Positions 3,859-51,968 of a stretch of DNA of 64,000 bases are shown piece after piece. Position numbers and translations under genes: made by a program. Below the pieces are notes generated by a model that did no database searches, was not told the origin of the DNA, and saw only the letters and a list, made by a program, of their open reading frames with translations. Within the stretch, counting starts at the first letter, position 1. Each line of letters starts with the position of its first letter. This DNA comes from Sandarakinorhabdus sp. AAP62 (GTDB lineage: Bacteria; Pseudomonadota; Alphaproteobacteria; Sphingomonadales; Sphingomonadaceae), in assembly GCF_000331225.1 (NCBI RefSeq), contig NZ_ANFY01000011.1:62001-126000 (forward strand). Direction: 5' to 3'.

Positions 3859-4629
3859 TTACTCCGGGAGATGGGCGGAAAAACGGATGCGGACATAATC
3901 GGCGATCCACTGGCCATCGGCGGCTTGCAGCGCCGGGGCGAGAAGAGCGACGGTTTCGGCGATGATCTGGTCGTGTTGGTCAGCGGGCACACCGGCGGCA
4001 TCGATGAAGCCGCCGCGGAAGGTTTCGAGCCAGCCGGCCATGCCGCTTTCCGGCAGCGGCGTCGGGCGCGGGATGATGGCGCAACTGTCCACCACAAAGC
4101 CGCCCTGTTCCAGAACGGCGCGGAAGGCTTCGGCGGTGGGATAGTAGCTGGTTTCGGCTCCGGCGGCCGGGAAGCCGTGGCGGGCGAGCACGGCAATCAG
4201 CGCGGTGCGGATGGCGGCGATGTTGGCGTGGCCGCCGAATTCGCCGACATAGCGCCCGCCGGCCTTCAGCGCGCGCTTCACACCAGCCGTCACCACGTCA
4301 GGCTGGCCGACCCAGTGCAGCGCAGCGTTGGTGAAGACGGCATCGAATTCGGCATCGAAATCGAGCGCGCGTGCGTCACCCAGGCGGGCATCAATGCCCT
4401 TGGCTTGCGCCGCCGCCACCATCGCCGGATCGGCATCGACACCCACCACGTCGCAGCCGGCAGCGATCAGCTTCTGCGTCAGCACGCCATCGCCGCACCC
4501 AAGATCGAGCACGCGCTCGCTTGGGCGCGGTGCCAGCAGGTCAAGCACCGCCGCGCCCAACGCCGGCACGAAGGCGGCGTTGGTGGCATAGAGGGACGGA
4601 TCCCAGCGCGTGGCGGTGCCAGTTGTCAC
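3859..4629 (-). CDS. Class I SAM-dependent methyltransferase inside the gcv operon
   Basis: 256 residues with a Rossmann methyltransferase core: motif [10 protein letters not shown] near residue 43, the acidic motif II (VVGVDAD) and the FTNAALHWV stretch seen in trans-aconitate-methyltransferase-like proteins. The GTG start directly abuts the TAA of gcvH, and the stop lies 5 nt before gcvPA, so it is translated as part of the glycine cleavage operon. The canonical gcv set has no methyltransferase. The link to one-carbon metabolism (the T-protein feeds methylene-THF and hence SAM) is suggestive only, and the acceptor is unknown. Confidence 0.85.
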
Positions 4630-7281: not shown

Positions 7282-7366
7282 GCCCCTCTCCTATGGGGCA
7301 AAAGGCGTCACCGCAAGCATCAACAAATTGTGGCGCGGCCCAGACCAATCGCGTATCAGCCGGGGC

Positions 7367-8344
7367 ATGAGCAGCCTTGCCCCCGCCATTGAATTCGATC
7401 CTGCCCAACGGCCCGCCCTGAACGTGCTGATTGCTGCGCCGCGCGGCTTTTGCGCGGGGGTCGATCGCGCCATTCACATCGTCGAACTGGCGCTCGAACG
7501 CTGGGGTGCGCCAGTCTATGTCCGTCACGAAATCGTCCACAACAAGTTCGTGGTCGACAGTTTGAAGGACAAGGGCGCCATCTTCGTGGAAGAGCTGGAC
7601 GAAGTGCCGGACGGCGTGCCGGTGGTGTTCTCCGCGCACGGCGTGCCCAAGGCCGTGCCGGCCAAGGCCGAAGAGCGCGGGCTGACCTATGTGGATGCCA
7701 CCTGCCCGCTGGTTTCCAAGGTGCATCGCCAGGCCGAACGGCTGGTGGCTGCCGGCTGCCACATCCTGTTCATCGGCCACCAGGGCCATCCGGAAGTGAT
7801 CGGCACCTTCGGCCAGGTGCCCGAAGGCGCCATGACGCTGATCGAAACGCTGGAAGACGCCCAGAATGTCCAGCCGCCACACGCCGGCAAGCTGGGCTTC
7901 CTCACCCAGACAACGCTGAGCGTGGACGACACGTCGGACATGGTGGCCGAGCTCAAGCGCCGCTTCCCGGCCATCGAGGGCCCGCGCGGCGACGACATCT
8001 GCTATGCCACCTCCAACCGTCAGGCCGCAGTGAAGGCGATGGCGCCGCGCTGCGATCTGGTGCTGGTGATTGGCGCGGCCAACAGCAGCAACAGCCAGCG
8101 CCTGCGCGAAGTGGCGGAACGCGAGGGCGCGCGCAGCTGGCTGATCCAGCGTGCCGCCGAAATCGATTGGGCCTGGTTTGACGGCGTCACCACTGTTGGG
8201 GTCACCGCCGGCGCGTCGGCGCCCGAACTGCTGGTGCAGGAAGTGCTGGCGGCGATGGGCGAGCGCTACAGCGTCACCAGCGAGAACATCACCACGGCGG
8301 TCGAAGAAGTGGTGTTCAAGCTGCCGCGCGCGCTGACCGCGTAA
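7367..8344 (+). CDS. ispH: 4-hydroxy-3-methylbut-2-enyl diphosphate reductase
   Basis: 325 residues from the ATG at 7367. The frame is open further up, but that would overlap the divergent lipoprotein gene. The three cysteines that hold the catalytic Fe-S cluster are visible: C29 in RGFCAGV, C113 in ATCPLV and C212 in [19 protein letters not shown] near the C-terminus binds the diphosphate. IspH makes IPP and DMAPP in the last step of the MEP pathway, the precursor supply for the carotenoid genes and for bacteriochlorophyll phytol. It begins a plus-strand run with thrB, rnhA and pucC. Confidence 0.97.
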
Positions 8345-8354
8345 TCCCGGCGTC

Positions 8355-9314
8355 ATGGCGGTTTACACTCCGGTCAGTGCGGCCGATCTGGCGGCGTTTC
8401 TGGCCGCTTATGACGTGGGCACCGCCATCAGCTTCAAGGGCATTGCCGAAGGCGTCGAGAACAGCAATTTTCTCGTTGATACAACGACAGGCCGCTATTT
8501 CCTCACCCTGTATGAAAAGCGGGTCGATGCCGCCGATCTGCCCTGGTTCCTGGCGCTGACCACCCATCTGGCCGGCTGCGGCCTGCCGGTGCCGCGCCCG
8601 ATCACCGATCGCGGCGGCATTGCCCTCAAATCCCTCAACGGCCGCCCGGCCTGCCTGATCGAATATCTTGCCGGTGTTTCGGTGACCGATCCGACACCGG
8701 ACGAATGCCAGGCGGTTGGCGAAGCGCTGGGCAAATTGCACCTGGCCGGCGCCCAGTTCACCGCGGTGCGCGAAAATGCGCTGGGGCCGGCGGCCTGGGC
8801 TCCGCTGGCGGCGCGCTGCGATGGCCGCATGGGCGAGATTGATCGGGCCTTGCCGGCCCTGGTTGATGCCGGGCTGGCCGCCACCGCCCGCTGGCCCGCC
8901 AGCCTGCCGCGCGGCACCATCCATGCCGATCTGTTCTGTGACAATGTGCTCATGCTCGACAGCAAGGTCAGCGGACTGATCGACTTCTATTTCGCCTGTA
9001 CCGATCTGATCGCCTATGATTACGCCGTCACCCATGCCGCCTGGTGCTTCTCCGTTGACGGCACCACTCACGTGCCGGCGCGGGCTGCGGCCCTGTGGGC
9101 CGGCTATGCCGCGGCGCGCGGGCTGAGCGCGGCCGAGATGGCCGCCCTGCCGCAACTGGGCGCCGGCGCCGCGCTGCGCTTCACGCTCACGCGCGCCTTT
9201 GATTGGCTCAACACGCCGGCGGATGCGCTGGTCACCCGCAAGGATCCGATGGCCTTTGCGCGCCGGCTGGCCTGGTATCTGGCCGCATCTCCGGAGGTGA
9301 TGCTTGGCCAGTGA
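8355..9314 (+). CDS. thrB: Homoserine kinase (APH-fold, ThrB2 type)
   Basis: 319 residues. The start [19 protein letters not shown] and the segment [13 protein letters not shown] are typical of the aminoglycoside-phosphotransferase-fold homoserine kinases of alphaproteobacteria, which differ from the GHMP-type ThrB. The catalytic loop HADLFCDNV and the metal-binding GLIDFYFAC are intact. It phosphorylates homoserine on the way to threonine. It starts 10 nt after ispH, and its 3' end overlaps the rnhA start by 11 nt, an arrangement common in this group. Confidence 0.94.
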
Positions 9315-9780
9315 AGCGTCGCGCCCCCGGGTCGAAATCTTCACCGATGGCGCCTGCAAGGGCAATCCCGGCCCCGGCGGCTGGGGCGCCATCCTGCGCG
9401 CCGGCGGCAAGGAACGGGAACTGAACGGCGCCGAGCCGCACACCACCAACAACCGCATGGAATTGCAGGCGGCGATTTCGGCCCTGAACGCCCTTACCCG
9501 GCCCTGCGAGGTCGATCTCACCACCGACAGCGTCTATGTGCGCGACGGCATTTCGAAATGGGTGCACGGCTGGCAGAAGAACGGCTGGAAGACTGCCGAC
9601 AAGAAGCCGGTGAAGAACGACGATCTGTGGCAGGCGCTGCTTGCCGCCGCTCGCCCGCATGTCGTGCGCTGGCACTGGGTGAAGGGCCACGCCGGCCACC
9701 CGGAGAACGAACGCGCCGATGAACTGGCCAACGAAGCCATTGTGGCAATGAAGGAAGGCCGACACGCAGGTCATCATTGA
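9304..9780 (+). CDS. rnhA: Ribonuclease HI
   Basis: 158 residues from a TTG start at 9304, which is preceded by GGAGG at a spacing of six. No ATG or GTG in frame lies near. The catalytic acids are all present: D15 in [16 protein letters not shown]53 in MELQAA, D75 in TDSVYV and the last Asp in [14 protein letters not shown]. It cleaves the RNA strand of RNA-DNA hybrids. Its start lies inside the end of thrB. Confidence 0.96.
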
Positions 9781-9821
9781 GACCATTGCCAACGGCGCCG
9801 CAATCCGCTTTGAGGCTGACC

Positions 9822-11225
9822 ATGGCTTCTGAACCCACCGCAAAGGGCATCAACGCCCGCCTCACCAAGGTCTGGATGACCTGGGGTGCCCAATTCCTGC
9901 CGTTCGCCGATGTCGCCAGCCCGGAATTGCCGCTGTCGCGCCTGCTGCGCCTGTCGTTGATCCAGGTCAGCGTGGGAATGAGCCTGGTGCTGCTGGTCGG
10001 CACGCTGAATCGCGTGATGATCGTCGAACTCGGCGTGCCGGCGACGCTGGTGGGCGTGATGCTGGCGCTGCCGCTGCTGGCCGCGCCGTTCCGGGCACTC
10101 ATTGGCCACAAATCCGATACGCACAAATCGGCACTGGGCTGGCGGCGCGTGCCCTTTATCTACCTCGGCACCATGGTGCAGTTCGGCGGCCTCGCCATCA
10201 TGCCGTTTGCGCTGCTGGTGCTGGCCGGCGCGCAGGAAGCCTATGACGAACGCATCTGGCTGGGCTACCCGGCCGCCGCCCTGGCCTTCCTGCTGGTCGG
10301 CGCGGGTATCCACACCACGCAAACCGTTGGCCTGGCGCTGGCCACCGATCTCACCAAGACCGAACAACAGCCAAACGTGGTTGGCCTCATGTATGTCATG
10401 CTGCTGCTTGGCTCCATCGCCGCGGCGCTGTTCTTTGGCTGGGCGCTGGAGGATTTCAGCCAGGGCCGGCTGATCCAGGTCATCCAGGGCAGCGCCGTCA
10501 TCACCATCATCCTGAATTTCACCGCGTTGTGGAAACAGGAATCCCGGATACCGCATTATCGCCGCACCGAACCGGCCACCCCGGATCCCACATTCCGTGA
10601 AAGCTGGGACCTGTTCACGGCCAAGGATAAAACCGTGCTGCGTCTGCTGGCCGTCGGGCTGGGCACGCTGGCCTTTTCCATGTCGGATATCGTGCTGGAA
10701 CCCTATGGCGGCGAAGTGCTGAAACTGGGCGTTGGCACCACCACGCTGCTTTCCGCCATCATGGCGTTCGGCAGCCTGATGGGATTTGCCTATGCCTCCT
10801 ACATCCTGTCCCTCGGTGCCGATCCGTTCCGCATGGCCAGCCTGGGCACCGTGATCGGCCTGCCGGCCTATGGCCTGATCATCATGGCTGCCAGTTCCGA
10901 CACGCCGGAACTGTTCACACTGGGCGTGCTGCTGGCCGGCATCGGTACCGGCCTGTTCGGCCATGGCACCCTCACCGCCACGATGCAGTTGGCGCCGCGC
11001 GCCCAGGTGGGCATCGCCATGGGCGCATGGGGGGCAGTGCAGGCCACGTCGCAGGGCATTGGCGCCACCGTTGGCGGCGTGATTCGCGATGTGGCTGGCA
11101 GCCTGTCACTGTCGTCCACACCGGGGGCCAGTGGCTATGTGCTGATCTTTGCCCTCGAGCTGGCGCTGATGGTGGCGACGCTGGCGGCGATGTGGCCGCT
11201 CTTGCAGCGCGACATCGAGAATTGA
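9822..11225 (+). CDS. pucC: PucC/LhaA-family MFS carrier (light-harvesting complex assembly)
   Basis: About 467 residues with roughly 12 hydrophobic segments. The N-terminal region RLSLIQVSVGMSLVLLVGTLNRVMIVELGVPATLVG followed by PFRALIGHKSD (separate stretches) belongs to the BCD/PucC group of the major facilitator superfamily. These proteins are needed for LH1 or LH2 assembly or bacteriochlorophyll delivery. The ATG at 9822 has GAGG six bases upstream; the frame is open back to 9777. The gene faces pucBA tail to tail, which strengthens the assignment. Whether it serves LH2 (PucC) or LH1 (LhaA) is an inference from this position. Confidence 0.85.
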   Translation: MASEPTAKGINARLTKVWMTWGAQFLPFADVASPELPLSRLLRLSLIQVSVGMSLVLLVGTLNRVMIVELGVPATLVGVMLALPLLAAPFRALIGHKSDTHKSALGWRRVPFIYLGTMVQFGGLAIMPFALLVLAGAQEAYDERIWLGYPAAALAFLLVGAGIHTTQTVGLALATDLTKTEQQPNVVGLMYVMLLLGSIAAALFFGWALEDFSQGRLIQVIQGSAVITIILNFTALWKQESRIPHYRRTEPATPDPTFRESWDLFTAKDKTVLRLLAVGLGTLAFSMSDIVLEPYGGEVLKLGVGTTTLLSAIMAFGSLMGFAYASYILSLGADPFRMASLGTVIGLPAYGLIIMAASSDTPELFTLGVLLAGIGTGLFGHGTLTATMQLAPRAQVGIAMGAWGAVQATSQGIGATVGGVIRDVAGSLSLSSTPGASGYVLIFALELALMVATLAAMWPLLQRDIEN

Positions 11226-11340
11226 TGCAACGCAATATGCGGCTTCACCGGGCTGCCGCCACGTTCAGGCACCACGGACCTTCGAATCACAGGATCGCTG
11301 CAGCAGTGCCGCAATGCCGGGCCGGCACTTGCCAAACATG

Positions 11341-11373
11341 AAAAGGCCGGCGCTCCGCAAGGAAGCGCCGGCC
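11341..11373 (-). terminator. Rho-independent terminator of pucBA
   Basis: On the minus strand a perfect 10-bp GC stem (GGCCGGCGCT with AGCGCCGGCC) closes a nine-base loop and is followed at once by TTTT. It lies about 46 nt past the pucA stop. Read on the plus strand it has fewer Ts after it, so it may also end pucC transcripts, but less well. Confidence 0.8.
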
Positions 11374-11419
11374 CATTTCACCCCGCCCGGCAGCGCCGGA
11401 ACGGGATTGGTTCAATGGC

Positions 11420-11689
11420 TTACTGAGCCGGAGCCGCTTCGGCCGGAGCCGCTTCGGCGGGCGCAGCTTCAGCCGCGGCCGGCGCCATGGCATCGGCAGC
11501 CGGAGCCGCAGCTTCAGCGGCCGGAGCCGCGGCGTGCGCAGCGGCCGAGCCTTCCCAATAGCTGCCAAACCAGCTGGTGTTCACCAGGATGGAGGCATGG
11601 ACGAGCAGCGCCACGGTGGCGACTGCGATGAAGAACAGCGGGATCCCCACGCTGGGGCTGACATAGAGCCAGATACGACCTTCATTCAT
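11420..11689 (-). CDS. pucA: LH2-type light-harvesting alpha subunit with long Ala/Pro tail
   Basis: 89 residues. Residues 1-47 align without gaps to the LH2 alpha chain of Rhodoblastus acidophilus as I remember it: MN-x-G-x-IW, P12, GIP at 15-17, the bacteriochlorophyll ligand H31, IL at 34-35, and W40 F41 x x Y44 W45 x G. Y44 and W45 are the residues that bond the B850 acetyl groups, so a B850-like rather than B820-like spectrum is expected. Residues 48-89 form an Ala/Pro/Glu-rich tail of low complexity not found in the short classic chains. A GGAG lies about eight bases upstream of the ATG. It follows pucB by 19 nt. Confidence 0.88.
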   Translation of the reverse strand: MNEGRIWLYVSPSVGIPLFFIAVATVALLVHASILVNTSWFGSYWEGSAAAHAAAPAAEAAAPAADAMAPAAAEAAPAEAAPAEAAPAQ

Positions 11690-11708
11690 GTGTCAGTCTC
11701 CTCTGAGC

Positions 11709-11861
11709 TTACTGCAGCCACGGCGTAAGCGCATACGCCAGGATGTGCGCCAAAACGGCAATCGCGCCGAAAATGCGGGTGCCCCACTTGAGGCCCTCGT
11801 TGATTTCGTTCGCTTCCTTCTCGGTCAGTCCTGTCGGATAGACCTTTGTATCATCAGCCAT
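11709..11861 (-). CDS. pucB: LH2-type light-harvesting beta subunit
   Basis: 50 residues from an ATG preceded by GGGAG at a spacing of six. After a polar N-terminus come LTEKEANEINEGL, GTRIF, a single membrane span with the bacteriochlorophyll ligand H39 in AHILAYA, and the terminal TPWL motif. R29 matches the LH2 beta Arg that contacts B800. The position 18 residues before H39, normally a His, is Asn21 (AAC at 11799-11801). Order beta then alpha is the usual puc order. No pufLM, bch or other photosynthesis genes lie in the window apart from pucC and the crt genes. Confidence 0.9.
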   Translation of the reverse strand: MADDTKVYPTGLTEKEANEINEGLKWGTRIFGAIAVLAHILAYALTPWLQ

Positions 11862-12025: not shown

Positions 12026-12053
12026 TCCATAATCAAACTGTCGCATGTGTCAA
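12026..12053 (-). promoter_or_regulatory. Candidate promoter for pucBA
   Basis: In the 374-bp space between pucB and the divergent M20 peptidase gene, the minus strand carries TTGACA (12053-12048), 16 bases, then TATGGA (12031-12026). The -35 is perfect and the -10 is weak. The leader to the pucB ATG would be about 160 nt. I searched by eye for the TGT-N12-ACA palindrome bound by PpsR/CrtJ and did not find one. The rest of the space shows no gene. Confidence 0.3.
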
Positions 12054-12235
12054 TCTGTCACCGTAACTTCCCCTATACGGTACTTGACAATAGTGCAGCG
12101 CAGCATGGCCGTTGTTGCAGCGCAGCAGAGTTTTCCCGCTTTTCTTCCCAACATGTTGGGATATTCTCTGGTTTCCGGGTGCCCGGCCTGTCAGGCGCTG
12201 ATGTCCGGCTGATATCCGCAACAGGGGCAACATTT

Positions 12236-46648: not shown

Positions 46649-47581
46649 TTATTCCGGCATCGTCCACAGGCCCTCGCGGGCCGGCCCCGGCATTGGCCAG
46701 CGCGATTTGCGCACCAGCGCATCGCCCAGCGCCAGCGCCACGGCGCGGGCCTTTTCGGCCCTGGTGGTGGAAACCCGCTTTTCCAGCCCTTTTTCCTCCA
46801 GCCCGCGCACCTTGCGGCCGATGCCGCCATAGATGCGCGCGGCGGCCAGCACCGCCCAGGCGGCGCGGTTGCCCAATTGCGACGTGCCGTAGCGCGCCGA
46901 TTCCTCATATTCCTCGGCCTTGAACACCAGCCGGGCGACAAGGCGGGAGAGTTGCCGGCGATTCTTTTCCAGCACGAATGTCTCCGGCTCCAGCCGCACG
47001 CTGGCCAGCCAATCATCAGGAATGTAGCGGCGGCCGATCAGCGCGTCTTCCACCACGTCGCGCGCGATGTTGTTGAGCTGAAAGCTCATCCCCAGATCGC
47101 AGGCGCGTTCCAGCACGGCACGCTCATCGGGCTTCACGCCCATCACGATTGCCATCATCACGCCCACACAGCCGGCGACGTGATAGCAATAGGTGAGCGT
47201 ATCATCGAAGGTGCGGAACGGCCGTTCCTCCATGTCGATGCGGAAGCCCTGGATCAGATCGCGCGGGTAACGCGCCGGCATGCCCGTCTGCTCAACCACC
47301 ATCGCCAGCGCCTCGTAAGGCGTGCCGGGCGTGGGATTGCCGGCCAGCGCGCGTTCGGTTTCCCAATGCACTTCGGCCAAACGCTCGGCCGGCGGGCGGC
47401 GATCATCGTTGCGGCCCTCACCCAGCACCTGGCCATCGATCACGTCATCGGTGTGGCGGCACCAGGCATAAAGCAGCATGGCGCGATCGCGCGTCGGCGC
47501 ATCGAACAGGCGGCTCGCCAGTGCGAAGCTTTTGGAACCGCGCGCGATGGCGGTGCGGGCATTATCGAGAACGACAGACAC
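46649..47581 (-). CDS. crtB: 15-cis-phytoene synthase
   Basis: About 310 residues from the GTG at 47581, which gives the normal start (SVVLDNARTAIARGSKSFALAS). The frame is open to a TTG at 47617. The two Asp-rich motifs that bind diphosphate through Mg are DDVID (45-49) and DVVED. CrtB condenses two geranylgeranyl diphosphates to phytoene. It follows crtI by about 55 bp. crtE is not in the window. Confidence 0.95.
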   Translation of the reverse strand: MSVVLDNARTAIARGSKSFALASRLFDAPTRDRAMLLYAWCRHTDDVIDGQVLGEGRNDDRRPPAERLAEVHWETERALAGNPTPGTPYEALAMVVEQTGMPARYPRDLIQGFRIDMEERPFRTFDDTLTYCYHVAGCVGVMMAIVMGVKPDERAVLERACDLGMSFQLNNIARDVVEDALIGRRYIPDDWLASVRLEPETFVLEKNRRQLSRLVARLVFKAEEYEESARYGTSQLGNRAAWAVLAAARIYGGIGRKVRGLEEKGLEKRVSTTRAEKARAVALALGDALVRKSRWPMPGPAREGLWTMPE

Positions 47582-47636
47582 GGATGGGCTTCTGCCCGCC
47601 TGCGCCGCGCGGCGCAAGCGGGCTGAATGGCGGAGA

Positions 47637-49130
47637 TCAGGCCGCCTTCTTGCCCAGCAAGTCTTCCACCATCAGCTTGCCGGTGGCCTTGGCGCTGCCC
47701 ACCACGCCGGGGATGCCGGCGCCGGGGTGCGTGCCGGCACCAACGAAATAGAGGTTGGACAGCACGTCATCACGGTTGTGGGTGCGGAAATAGGCGCTCT
47801 GCCACAGCACCGGTTCCAGGCTGAAGGCGCTGCCATTGTGGGCGCCCAGCACCGTCTCGAAATCCTTCGGCGTCCAGGTACGCATCGTCACCAGGTCGCG
47901 CTTCAGGTTGGGGATGCAGCGGCGTTCCAGCGCATCGAGGATGGAATCGGCATAGCGCGGCGCTTCCTTTTCCCAATCGATGTCGAGCTTGCCCAGATGC
48001 GGCACCGGGGACAGCACATAGAAGGCGCTGTGGCCCGCCGGCGCCATTTCCGGATCGGTCGCAGTCGGGTGGTGCAGGTAGAGCGAGAAATCATCGGGCA
48101 GCGCGCCGCCCTTGTAGATTTCATCGAGCAGGCCCTTGTAGCGGTGGCCGAACAGGATGGTGTGATGCTTCACATCGGGGCGTTCGCCCTTCAGGCCGAA
48201 GTAGGTCACGAACAGCGACGGGGAGAAGCTGCGGCGCATCATCTTGGTGGCCATTTCGGCACCGCGCGGGTGGGCCGACAAGAGCTCCTTGTAGGTGTTG
48301 ACCACGTCGCCATTGGAAACGACCGCATCGAAACGGCCCGACCAGCCATCGGCGCAGCGCACGCCGGTCACGCGGCCGCTGTCGGCCATGATGGCTTCGA
48401 CCTTGCTGCCCATGCGGACCTGGCCGCCGATATCCTCGAACAGCTTCACCATGCCACGCACCAGCGCATGGGTGCCGCCACGCGGGAACCAGACGCCCCA
48501 CTTCTTTTCGAGCGCATGGATGAGGGCGTAGACGGAGCTGGTCTTGAACGGGTTGCCGCCCACCAGCAGCGTGTGGAAGCTGAACGCCTGGCGCAGGCGA
48601 TCATCCTTGATGTGGCGCGAGACCATCGCATAGACCGAACGGAACGCTTCATAACGCATCAGCTGCGGCGCCGCCTTCAGCATCGACTTGAAATCGAGGA
48701 AGGCTTCGTGGCCGAGCTTCTGATAGCCTTCGCGGAACACATTGTCGGAAAATTCGAGGAATTTCCTGTAGCCGGCCACGTCATCCGGGCTCAGCTTGGC
48801 GATTTCCGCAAACAGGGCTTCTTCATCGTTCGAATAATCGAACACCGTGCCATCTTCCCACAGCAGGCGATAGAAGGGTGCGACCGAGATCAGCTCGACA
48901 TAATCGGACAGCTTGCGGCCCGACAGTTCGAACAATTCCTCAAGGCAGGTCGGATCGGTGATGACCGTGGGGCCGGCATCGAACTTGAAGCCATCATCTT
49001 CAAACACATAGGCACGGCCACCCGGCTTGTCGCGGGCCTCGATCAGGGTGGTCTGGATGCCCGCGCTCTGCAGGCGGATGGCCAGCGCCAAGCCTCCGAA
49101 ACCCGAACCAATCACTGCAGCAGTCGTCAT
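47637..49130 (-). CDS. crtI: Phytoene desaturase
   Basis: 497 residues. The N-terminal FAD-binding motif is AAVIGSGFGGLALAIRLQSAG, with the RDKPGGRAYVF continuation. The C-terminal signature is seen in NLYFVGAGTHPGAGIPGVV. CrtI introduces four double bonds into phytoene to give lycopene. Its start overlaps the crtY stop (ATGA), so cyclase and desaturase are co-translated. Confidence 0.96.
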   Translation of the reverse strand: MTTAAVIGSGFGGLALAIRLQSAGIQTTLIEARDKPGGRAYVFEDDGFKFDAGPTVITDPTCLEELFELSGRKLSDYVELISVAPFYRLLWEDGTVFDYSNDEEALFAEIAKLSPDDVAGYRKFLEFSDNVFREGYQKLGHEAFLDFKSMLKAAPQLMRYEAFRSVYAMVSRHIKDDRLRQAFSFHTLLVGGNPFKTSSVYALIHALEKKWGVWFPRGGTHALVRGMVKLFEDIGGQVRMGSKVEAIMADSGRVTGVRCADGWSGRFDAVVSNGDVVNTYKELLSAHPRGAEMATKMMRRSFSPSLFVTYFGLKGERPDVKHHTILFGHRYKGLLDEIYKGGALPDDFSLYLHHPTATDPEMAPAGHSAFYVLSPVPHLGKLDIDWEKEAPRYADSILDALERRCIPNLKRDLVTMRTWTPKDFETVLGAHNGSAFSLEPVLWQSAYFRTHNRDDVLSNLYFVGAGTHPGAGIPGVVGSAKATGKLMVEDLLGKKAA

Positions 49131-50293
49131 TTGATCCCCAATTCATATTTGACCAGCGTGCCCAGCGCCCGCAACGGCGGGATGGGCGGCCGGCCGGAAA
49201 ACACCTTCGGCCAATCATTCCAGCGATTGTCGGCGGCATAGAGCCGGCCAACCAGATCGTCTGGATGCTCATAGAAACGTTCCAGGATCGTGCGTCGTTC
49301 CTCGTCGTGCGCGGCCAGGAACAACATGCGATTGAGGATGCGATACATGCCGCGGTTGTTCCACACACGTATCGCATGGTCGCGGGCCGCGCGGTGGATG
49401 GTCGCAGCATCAAAGGCCGGCAGCGCCGCCACCATGTCAGCCATGCGCACCGCATCGGGAAACGAGTAGCCGGTCACCGGATGGAACAGGCCGGCGCCCA
49501 GGCCGACGCGCGCCACACCGGGCACACCTTCATCCAGGAATTTCTCGATATCGCCGCCAATGGCCAGCGGCAGGATGCCGGCCTCCTCGCGGGTGACGGC
49601 GGTGATCTGCCAGCCCTGCGCCACGGCATAATCGGCGATATGCCGGCGCAGCAGATCGGGCGCCAGATCGCGGCCGTCGGAAAAATAGGTGTCTTCGATC
49701 AGCACATGCCGGGGGCCGAACGGCAGCGTGTAGATGAAGCGATAGCCATCCTGTTGCGGCACGGTGGCATCCATGATGATCGGCCCGGCGAGGCCATGCG
49801 GTTCGGCCAGTTCCACCTCTTGCCCGAGGAATTTCTGCCACCTGAGATCGAGCGCGGTCGATTTGCTCTGGCCGCGGCCGTCGATCACGGCGCTGCAGGT
49901 CAGCACGCGCTGATCGGCCAATGTCACGGCTGTCGGGCTCAGCGCCACCACCGGCACGCCGGTGATGATGCGCTCCGGCGGCAACGCCTTGGCCACCTCC
50001 GCCGCCAGTCGCGCGCTGTTGCTGCTGCCATAACCCACGTTCAGCGTGCGGCTGTGGCGCGGGAAGCGCACCGAATAGCAATCCCAGCGATGGGCAAACA
50101 GTGGCTGGGTCCAGCGGCGCTGCTCCTCGTTGATGTCGAGACCGAACGAAGACCAGGTGTGATCGCCACCAATCGACGGCCCGGCCTCCACGATCGCCAC
50201 GCGCACATCCGGGCGCAGCTGCGCCAGTCGCAGCGCGATCAGGCCATTGGCCAGGCCCCCGCCGGCGAGGATCAGATCAAAATCCGGGTTCAC
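49127..50293 (-). CDS. crtY: Lycopene beta-cyclase (CrtY type)
   Basis: 388 residues from the GTG at 50293, giving the usual NPDFDLILAGGGLANGLIALRL dinucleotide-binding start in separate short motifs. FEHTW-like GGDHTWSS, the conserved GRGQ and EDTYFSDG follow. The frame runs open through the upstream repeat to 50620, but that part is repeat-derived and not protein-like. CrtY closes both ends of lycopene to beta-carotene. It is the first gene of crtY-crtI-crtB. Confidence 0.95.
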   Translation of the reverse strand: MNPDFDLILAGGGLANGLIALRLAQLRPDVRVAIVEAGPSIGGDHTWSSFGLDINEEQRRWTQPLFAHRWDCYSVRFPRHSRTLNVGYGSSNSARLAAEVAKALPPERIITGVPVVALSPTAVTLADQRVLTCSAVIDGRGQSKSTALDLRWQKFLGQEVELAEPHGLAGPIIMDATVPQQDGYRFIYTLPFGPRHVLIEDTYFSDGRDLAPDLLRRHIADYAVAQGWQITAVTREEAGILPLAIGGDIEKFLDEGVPGVARVGLGAGLFHPVTGYSFPDAVRMADMVAALPAFDAATIHRAARDHAIRVWNNRGMYRILNRMLFLAAHDEERRTILERFYEHPDDLVGRLYAADNRWNDWPKVFSGRPPIPPLRALGTLVKYELGIK

Positions 50294-50367
50294 GGCTGGC
50301 GTGTTAGACGGGTGGGCGCGCGGGGGGAAGGGGATTGAATGTCGCTTGGCCGGCTCGCTGCGCTCGC

Positions 50368-50496
50368 ACCCTCCCCCGGCCCCTCCCTGCAAGCAGGGAG
50401 GGGAGTTGCCCTTCTGCCCCCCTCCCTGCTCCCTGCTTGAAGGGAGGGGAGTTGTCCTTCTGCCCCCTCCCTTGCAGGGAGGGGACGGGGGAGGGT
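50368..50496. repeat. Composite palindromic repeat, family C
   Basis: Outer arms ACCCTCCCCCG and CGGGGGAGGGT enclose about three tandem versions of CCCTCCCTGCAAGCAGGGAG followed by GGGAGTTGYCCTTCTG. A single-unit relative lies at 15450-15494. It fills much of the 301-bp space between the divergent crtY and P450 genes, so it sits where their promoters should be. Confidence 0.85.
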
Positions 50497-50594
50497 CATT
50501 TGCTGCCAGACGTCTCCCACCGCGACACCCCCGCCATTGCCCCTTGCCGCGCAAATGCGTATCCACACTCCGCACCAAGGGAGAGGTCTGCGCC

Positions 50595-51968
50595 ATGAAT
50601 GCCCACAACAGCGAGTTCATCCCGGCCGATCTGCCCGAGCCGACCTATGATGAGCTCAAGCATATTCCCGGCATGGAACCGGCGCGCTTCAAGATGCTGC
50701 GCACGCTGAAGTTTCTCGCCAACCCGCTGGGCCGCAGCCGCGAGCTGTTCGAACAATATGGCAGCATCGTGCGCCGGCAGGATTTCGGCGGCTGGGGCGT
50801 CTCGCTGATCGGCCCCGAAGCCAACGAGCTGGTGCTGTTCAACAAGGACAAGATTTTTTCGAGTGAACTGGGCTGGAACCCGGTGCTGGAACTGCTGTTC
50901 CCGCGCGGGCTGATGCTGATGGATTTCGAGGAACATCGCATCCACCGCAAGACCCTGTCGGTCGCCTTCAAGACCGAGCCGATGCAGCATTATTTCACCC
51001 AGCTTGACGAGGGCATCACCCGCGGGCTGGCGAAATGGCCGACGCGCCTCAAATTCTACCCGTCGATCAAGGCGCTCACCCTCGATCTCGCCGCCACCAG
51101 CTTCCTGGGCGTGCCGTGGGGCGGCGAGGCCGACAAGATCAACAAGGCCTTCCAGGACATGGTCGCGGCTTCGGTGGCCGTGATCCGCAAGCCCCTGCCC
51201 TTCACCGCCATGAAGCGCGGCGTCGATGGCCGCGCCTTCATGAGCCAGTATTTCGCCCGCGAAATCCCCAAGCGGCGTGGCACGCAAGCCAACGACATCT
51301 TCACCCAGGTGTGCAACGCCCGCGACGAAAATGACCAGCTGCTGGGCGAGCAGGACATCATCGACCACATGAACTTCCTGATGATGGCGGCGCACGACAC
51401 CACCACCTCGTCGATCACCTCCATCGTCTGGTGCCTGGCGAAATGGCCGGAATGGCAGGACAGGCTGCGCGAAGAGATCAAGTCCATCCGCGAACGCCAC
51501 GGCAAGCTGACCTACCAGACGCTGGGCGAGATGGAATTGACCGACATGGTGTTCAAGGAAGCGCTGCGGCTGATCCCGCCCGTCCCCTCCATGCCGCGCC
51601 GGGCGGTGAAGAGCTTCACCTTCCAGAACCATGTCGTGCCGGCCGGTGCGCATGTGGGGATCAACCAGATGATCAGCCACAGGCTGCCGGAATATTGGCC
51701 GAACCCGGAGCATTTCGACCCGACCCGCTTCAGCCCCGAAAACAGCCGCGGCCGCCACAAATATGCCTGGGTGCCGTTCGGCGGCGGCGCCCACATGTGC
51801 CTGGGCCAGCATTTCGCCTACATGCAGGTGAAGATGTTCTTCTTCGCCCTGCTGGAAGGCCATCGCATCGTCGCCGAAAAGCCGCTGGGCGATGTCGAGA
51901 GCGATTTCCGCATGTTCCCGATCCCCAAGCCCAAGGACGGCCTGCCCGTCCGCATCGAGGCCATCTGA
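50595..51968 (+). CDS. Cytochrome P450 monooxygenase
   Basis: 457 residues. The heme-binding loop is FGGGAHMCLGQ with the thiolate C402, the I-helix oxygen-activation motif AHDTTT (266-271), and the ExxR pair E322/R325. There is no membrane anchor and no fused reductase, so separate redox partners are required. The sequence resembles soluble P450s acting on terpenoid or retinoid-like lipids more than camphor-type ones. Its divergent position to crtY suggests a carotenoid or sterol-like substrate; this is inference. It is coupled to the hydrolase by TGATG. Confidence 0.92.
   Translation: MNAHNSEFIPADLPEPTYDELKHIPGMEPARFKMLRTLKFLANPLGRSRELFEQYGSIVRRQDFGGWGVSLIGPEANELVLFNKDKIFSSELGWNPVLELLFPRGLMLMDFEEHRIHRKTLSVAFKTEPMQHYFTQLDEGITRGLAKWPTRLKFYPSIKALTLDLAATSFLGVPWGGEADKINKAFQDMVAASVAVIRKPLPFTAMKRGVDGRAFMSQYFAREIPKRRGTQANDIFTQVCNARDENDQLLGEQDIIDHMNFLMMAAHDTTTSSITSIVWCLAKWPEWQDRLREEIKSIRERHGKLTYQTLGEMELTDMVFKEALRLIPPVPSMPRRAVKSFTFQNHVVPAGAHVGINQMISHRLPEYWPNPEHFDPTRFSPENSRGRHKYAWVPFGGGAHMCLGQHFAYMQVKMFFFALLEGHRIVAEKPLGDVESDFRMFPIPKPKDGLPVRIEAI

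Follow-up and report, generated by a model that had tools for sequence, protein, structure and literature searches.

The division of labour among the antenna factors PucC, LhaA and Bch2 has so far been studied by deletions in Rba. sphaeroides. According to one such study, PucC is important for LH2, LhaA, a member of the same protein family, serves LH1, and when LhaA is lost PucC sustains no more than a very low level of LH1 (PMC4949548). The two B850 pigments are bonded by Tyr44 and Trp45 of the LH2 alpha chain, and when the bond of Tyr44 is lost in Rba. sphaeroides a B800-839 complex results (PMC9618040). A 2025 review states that most Sphingomonadales are without LH2 genes and that such genes are usually found apart from the photosynthesis cluster; for Sandarakinorhabdus limnophila it gives an LH1 band at 865 nm and LH2 bands at 837 and 800 nm (PMC12654162). 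LH2 in Sandarakinorhabdus is already known, and we recognised no published description of these genes in the genus in a search with most subscription journals outside its scope. The genome announcement of Sandarakinorhabdus sp. AAP62 leaves pucBA unmentioned and lists lhaA after puhABC (PMC3587927).

The stretch analysed here (hereafter the window; G000:C11:62001-126000) comprises 64,000 nucleotides of the AAP62 genome (G000), which has 3,131,544 bases in 22 contigs. The following features were located in it:

9822-11225, + strand: pucC, coding for an antenna assembly factor of 467 aa; PF03209 (PUCC) at 468 bits, inside a PucC clade with 100/100 support
11344-11374, - strand: hairpin with a T-rich tail that resembles a terminator for pucBA, placed between the 3' ends of the converging genes (pattern scan)
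11689-11420, - strand: pucA, LH2 alpha, 89 aa; LHC family at 40.4 bits, LH2 side of the tree
11861-11709, - strand: pucB, LH2 beta, 50 aa; LHC family at 37.1 bits, LH2 side of the tree
12026-12061, - strand: conserved block upstream of pucB (TTGACA, 16 bases, TATGGA), a candidate promoter from an 11-row clade alignment
46649-50620, - strand: crtB, crtI and crtY, named after the Pfam families SQS_PSY, Amino_oxidase and Lycopene_cycl; same window, away from the puc genes

The positions of pucC, pucB and pucA agree with those of the initial annotation, and their PUCC and LHC (PF00556, cut-off 23 bits) families were found above cut-off, with scores far beyond chance. That annotation had described an antenna pair facing a PucC-like carrier. 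Read from the coordinates, pucC and pucBA are convergent, tail to tail; PUCC family membership stood, while the word carrier did not, as PucC, for all its MFS fold, counts as a factor for antenna assembly rather than as an established carrier. The locus very probably encodes a peripheral LH2 antenna with its PucC in an aerobic anoxygenic phototroph. PucB and PucA would each cross the membrane and bind BChl a and carotenoid, PucC would help them to form a ring presumed to be of the B800-850 type, and the ring would hand its energy on to the RC-LH1 core, whose genes lie on a different contig. The pufLM genes and the LH1 pufBA pair of this core were found on contig C7 of the same genome, so that reaction-centre genes are present, and photosynthesis genes of this genome lie on a contig of 550,045 bases. 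A further LHC-like hit in this genome, on contig C20 (E 0.09), stayed under the cut-off. Querying the window with the pufL, pufM, puhA, bchL, bchM, bchG, bchP and Bch2 sequences of its own genome returned nothing beyond a bchM-like stretch of 27% at 4261-4515 and a match of the Bch2 query to pucC itself, in keeping with the earlier observation that the 64 kb hold no pufLM or bch genes apart from crt genes. The stand-alone position of the puc locus had been called notable; its separate location was borne out, and its notability was weakened because a place apart from the photosynthesis cluster is the usual one for LH2 genes and S. limnophila LH2 is already listed in the review (PMC12654162). 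More notable are the convergent layout, a Tyr44/Phe split and a missing lhaA gene, all beyond the view of a reader of one window.

AAP62 belongs to a Sandarakinorhabdus clade (G000, G001, G004, G006, G007, G010, G014, G018, G019, G020 and G021, plus the incomplete G017) that includes S. limnophila, S. cyanobacteriorum, S. oryzae and S. rubra. All 11 complete clade genomes carry pufLM-type genes and four LHC genes, and each has only two PUCC genes, PucC and a Bch2-type gene, the latter assigned by score and, for G000, G001 and G004, also by tree. The nine other LH2-bearing genomes of the genus have three PUCC genes; among the tested relatives, LH1-only genomes have two (none found in G123) and most LH2-bearing genomes have three. 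LhaA is lost or absent in this clade. By tree and AU test the window gene is a true PucC, which leaves it as the sole factor of the LhaA/PucC type found here, and it follows that this factor acts on both antennas unless LH1 is assembled with no such help.

We tentatively propose that PucC, fixed outside the photosynthesis cluster, may build both antennas after the loss of LhaA, which would make this a natural purple photosystem with a single assembly factor of the PucC/LhaA pair. The chances of such a dual role are about evenly balanced against those of an LH1 that is independent of LhaA or relies on Bch2. Under this alternative, which may well be correct, PucC would serve LH2 only, and LH1 would assemble independently of any LhaA-type factor or by means of Bch2, aided by changes in LH1 itself. 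Bch2 is indeed kept in the clade, and a Trp directly follows the LH1-beta His (AHW) in 8/8 distinct clade rows of the LH alignment vs 0/35 others. In an Rba. sphaeroides lhaA deletion a few LH1 subunits still assemble (PMC4949548), but the very low LH1 level would be costly for a phototroph, and the pufLM and LH1 genes are kept in 11/11 clade genomes. At the six columns that tell PucC from LhaA, clade PucC proteins carry the PucC letter in all 11 rows, which argues against convergence of PucC on LhaA and counts against the dual role, as does the poor replacement of LhaA by PucC in Rba. sphaeroides (PMC4949548). These cultivable bacteria, keeping LH1 genes without LhaA, offer a natural loss in which the division of labour among PucC, LhaA and Bch2 can be tested. 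One example of the AHW motif lies at G000:C7:215701-215808.

It is very unlikely that lhaA is present in the clade genomes and was missed through assembly gaps. All clade genomes are draft and the AAP62 announcement places lhaA after puhABC (PMC3587927), but bchM and puhA, the usual flanks of lhaA, adjoin at a distance of 194-277 bases on one contig in 12/12 clade genomes with no PUCC gene between them. In relatives, lhaA was found between bchM and puhA in 18/20 LhaA stretches, one neighbour having been fetched in the other two. Despite the announcement, no PUCC match was found among the open reading frames scanned after puhA in AAP62, and whole-genome PUCC searches gave two members, which in AAP62 are the window gene and one gene between bchG and bchP, the place of Bch2. 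Candidate relics of lhaA between bchM and puhA were rejected, as the tblastn matches were short and weak (the best, in G004, spanning 10 residues at E 0.007) and the sequence is unlike LhaA starts. Two genomes of family genus g95, G123 and G269, were also considered as LhaA losses. They have pufLM-type genes without a puhA match, and G123 gave no PUCC match at E 1e-30, perhaps through assembly gaps; both were left uncounted because missing sequence may explain the absence of LhaA.

The assignment of the window gene as a true PucC draws on its place in the PUCC tree, where a PucC clade of 35 rows (100/100) holds all 28 pucC-labelled rows including the window gene. In 27 of these 28 rows an LH2 pair is no more than about 3.3 kb from the gene, the G002 gene being about 286 kb away, so that the window gene groups with pucBA-linked relatives of its own family. 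The set behind this tree took in 22/63 PucC loci, and one Bch2 row (L234) had a stop entered as X; five pucX rows, two betaproteobacterial and three of Gemmatimonadetes, fell outside the PucC clade. It is scarcely credible that the window gene is instead an LhaA that moved next to pucBA when PucC proper was lost, since for all its 49-57% identity to LhaA proteins and its standing as the sole remaining member of the LhaA/PucC pair, it lies in the 100/100 PucC clade, and AU tests, with groups defined on inspection of the first tree and L018 left out, rejected trees holding the window clade with LhaA (p-AU 6.8e-5 with all 20 LhaA, 8.9e-8 with the 4 genus LhaA).

The stem of the window clade is long (0.41) in the tree that includes the mosaic row L018, and clade PucC proteins are about equally distant from the rest of the genus (64-66% identity) and from other family genera (62-63%). 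By the same comparison BchM (79% in the genus vs 47-54%) and PuhA (59-60% vs 40-48%) are closer within the genus, and BchL is not (80-85% vs 79-84%). This PucC distance could be interpreted as fast change or as a separate origin of the locus. The row L018, placed in the PUCC tree without group assignment, comes from a MAG contig labelled Hyphomicrobiales, in which positions 7285-11055 carry bchL, bchM, a mosaic PUCC gene, pucA, pucB and part of an M20 gene. The PUCC gene is LhaA-like to about residue 245 and then clade-PucC-like, and L018 is probably an assembly chimera, or else a real recombinant.

Phylogeny of both antenna chains was performed on 89 joined alpha and beta pairs, after identical pairs had been merged and 30/119 LH pairs, all among L020-L070, dropped. 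LH1 (43 rows) and LH2 (46 rows) split with 100/100 support, with the window pair in LH2 as the initial annotation had proposed; the inner forks of the tree are weak because there are few columns, and the LH1/LH2 split itself is not. The nearest solved relative of both chains is PDB 9lt4 (B-800/814 alpha, B-800-850 beta; nine copies each), the best match of alpha being 9lt4_A (E 2.2e-18), with other LH2 chains next, and that of beta 9lt4_i (E 9.3e-22). The gap-free alignment with the LH2 alpha of Rbl. acidophilus claimed earlier was recovered as a match of residues 1-49 to residues 1-49 of 1kzu_A (annotated B-800/850 alpha; E 2.8e-13), which we take to be the Rbl. acidophilus chain. His31, Tyr44 and Trp45 of alpha and the beta His, the ligand and hydrogen-bond residues of B850, are all present, the alpha C-terminal tail is rich in Ala, Pro and Glu, and the beta ending given before as TPWL reads TPWLQ. 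A divergent second LH1 in place of LH2 is extremely improbable: the window beta does come near the cut-off of the NCBI LH1-beta model (59.8 bits, cut-off 61), but the LH1/LH2 split is clean and both chains find their best solved relatives in the B-800/814 complex 9lt4. Against the NCBI LH1-alpha model the window alpha scored 23, with a cut-off of 35.

LH2 had been expected to be uncommon among sphingomonads, and our survey supports this. An LH2 beta match (E up to 1e-5) was found in 15/397 family genomes and 5/96 genera, a count that divergent LH2 could have escaped, and 10 of the 15 belong to this genus. Matches of the pufLM type were found in 77/397 family genomes (76 over the cut-off), with all 15 LH2 genomes among the 77. 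In Sandarakinorhabdus, LHC genes were present in 23/24 genomes and the LH2 pair in 21/24. The incomplete MAG G017 (L019/L273) has an alpha chain that stops after 43 residues and a pucC match in two pieces, possibly through sequence error. Six genomes of family genus g7 (G029, G122, G183, G231, G331 and G391) have four PF00124 matches each, which points to a doubled pufLM set in each genome, the two copies lying on separate contigs or far apart.

Comparison of locus layout showed that pucC converges on pucBA in 20/21 LH2-bearing genomes of the genus, the exception being G002 (L216, L215), where the two lie about 286 kb apart. The five other family genomes with LH2 were convergent in G129, G189, G278 and G269 and colinear in G060. 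The colinear pucBAC operon of relatives in the class and in the Betaproteobacteria contains the same three genes as the window, but on one strand, with pucC downstream of pucBA; this order was found in 10/11 class genomes with LH2, and no linked pucC was found in G507, a class LH2 genome. The PucC proteins of 10 class genomes fall in the same clade as the window PucC or on nearby branches. Around the clade loci, rnhA lies just upstream of pucC (12/12) and an M20-like gene follows pucB (10/12), the latter named by eye from its sequence, with no Pfam match at 1e-15.

The closest described antenna, that of S. limnophila DSM 17366 (L017; G004), shares with the window the convergent locus beside rnhA, the clade of PucC and LH2 chains and the missing lhaA. 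Its alpha chain differs in carrying Phe-Trp in place of Tyr44-Trp45 and one extra residue before the His. Across the 11 readable clade alphas, six have Tyr-Trp, including the window, and five have Phe-Trp, including S. limnophila; in S. limnophila, G014 and G019 an extra residue displaces the pair by one position. The Phe-Trp pair of S. limnophila fits its 837 nm band, and the Tyr44-Trp45 pair of the window strain predicts absorption at about 850 nm, a prediction that extrapolates from one measured strain. The bands of S. limnophila at 837 and 800 nm, as listed in the review (PMC12654162), would contrast with about 850 nm in AAP62. In the 9lt4 alpha the residues aligned with the YW of the window are FF, in accord with a band further to the blue. 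The split at Tyr44 would trace the 837 nm band published for S. limnophila to a single residue, and provides a natural Tyr/Phe pair within one genus for antenna-tuning tests.

In the intergenic regions, the hairpin at 11344-11374 folds on the - strand at -37.4 kcal/mol (z -4.35) and on the + strand at -30.7 (z -4.19), where a T tail was not listed. The block at 12026-12061 may be a promoter of pucB; its hexamers were picked by eye from the alignment of 11 clade rows, and none was listed there by the promoter scan. The TGT-N12-ACA pattern, presumably a PpsR/CrtJ site, occurred within the 320 bases upstream of pucB in 0/11 clade rows vs 11/14 other rows.
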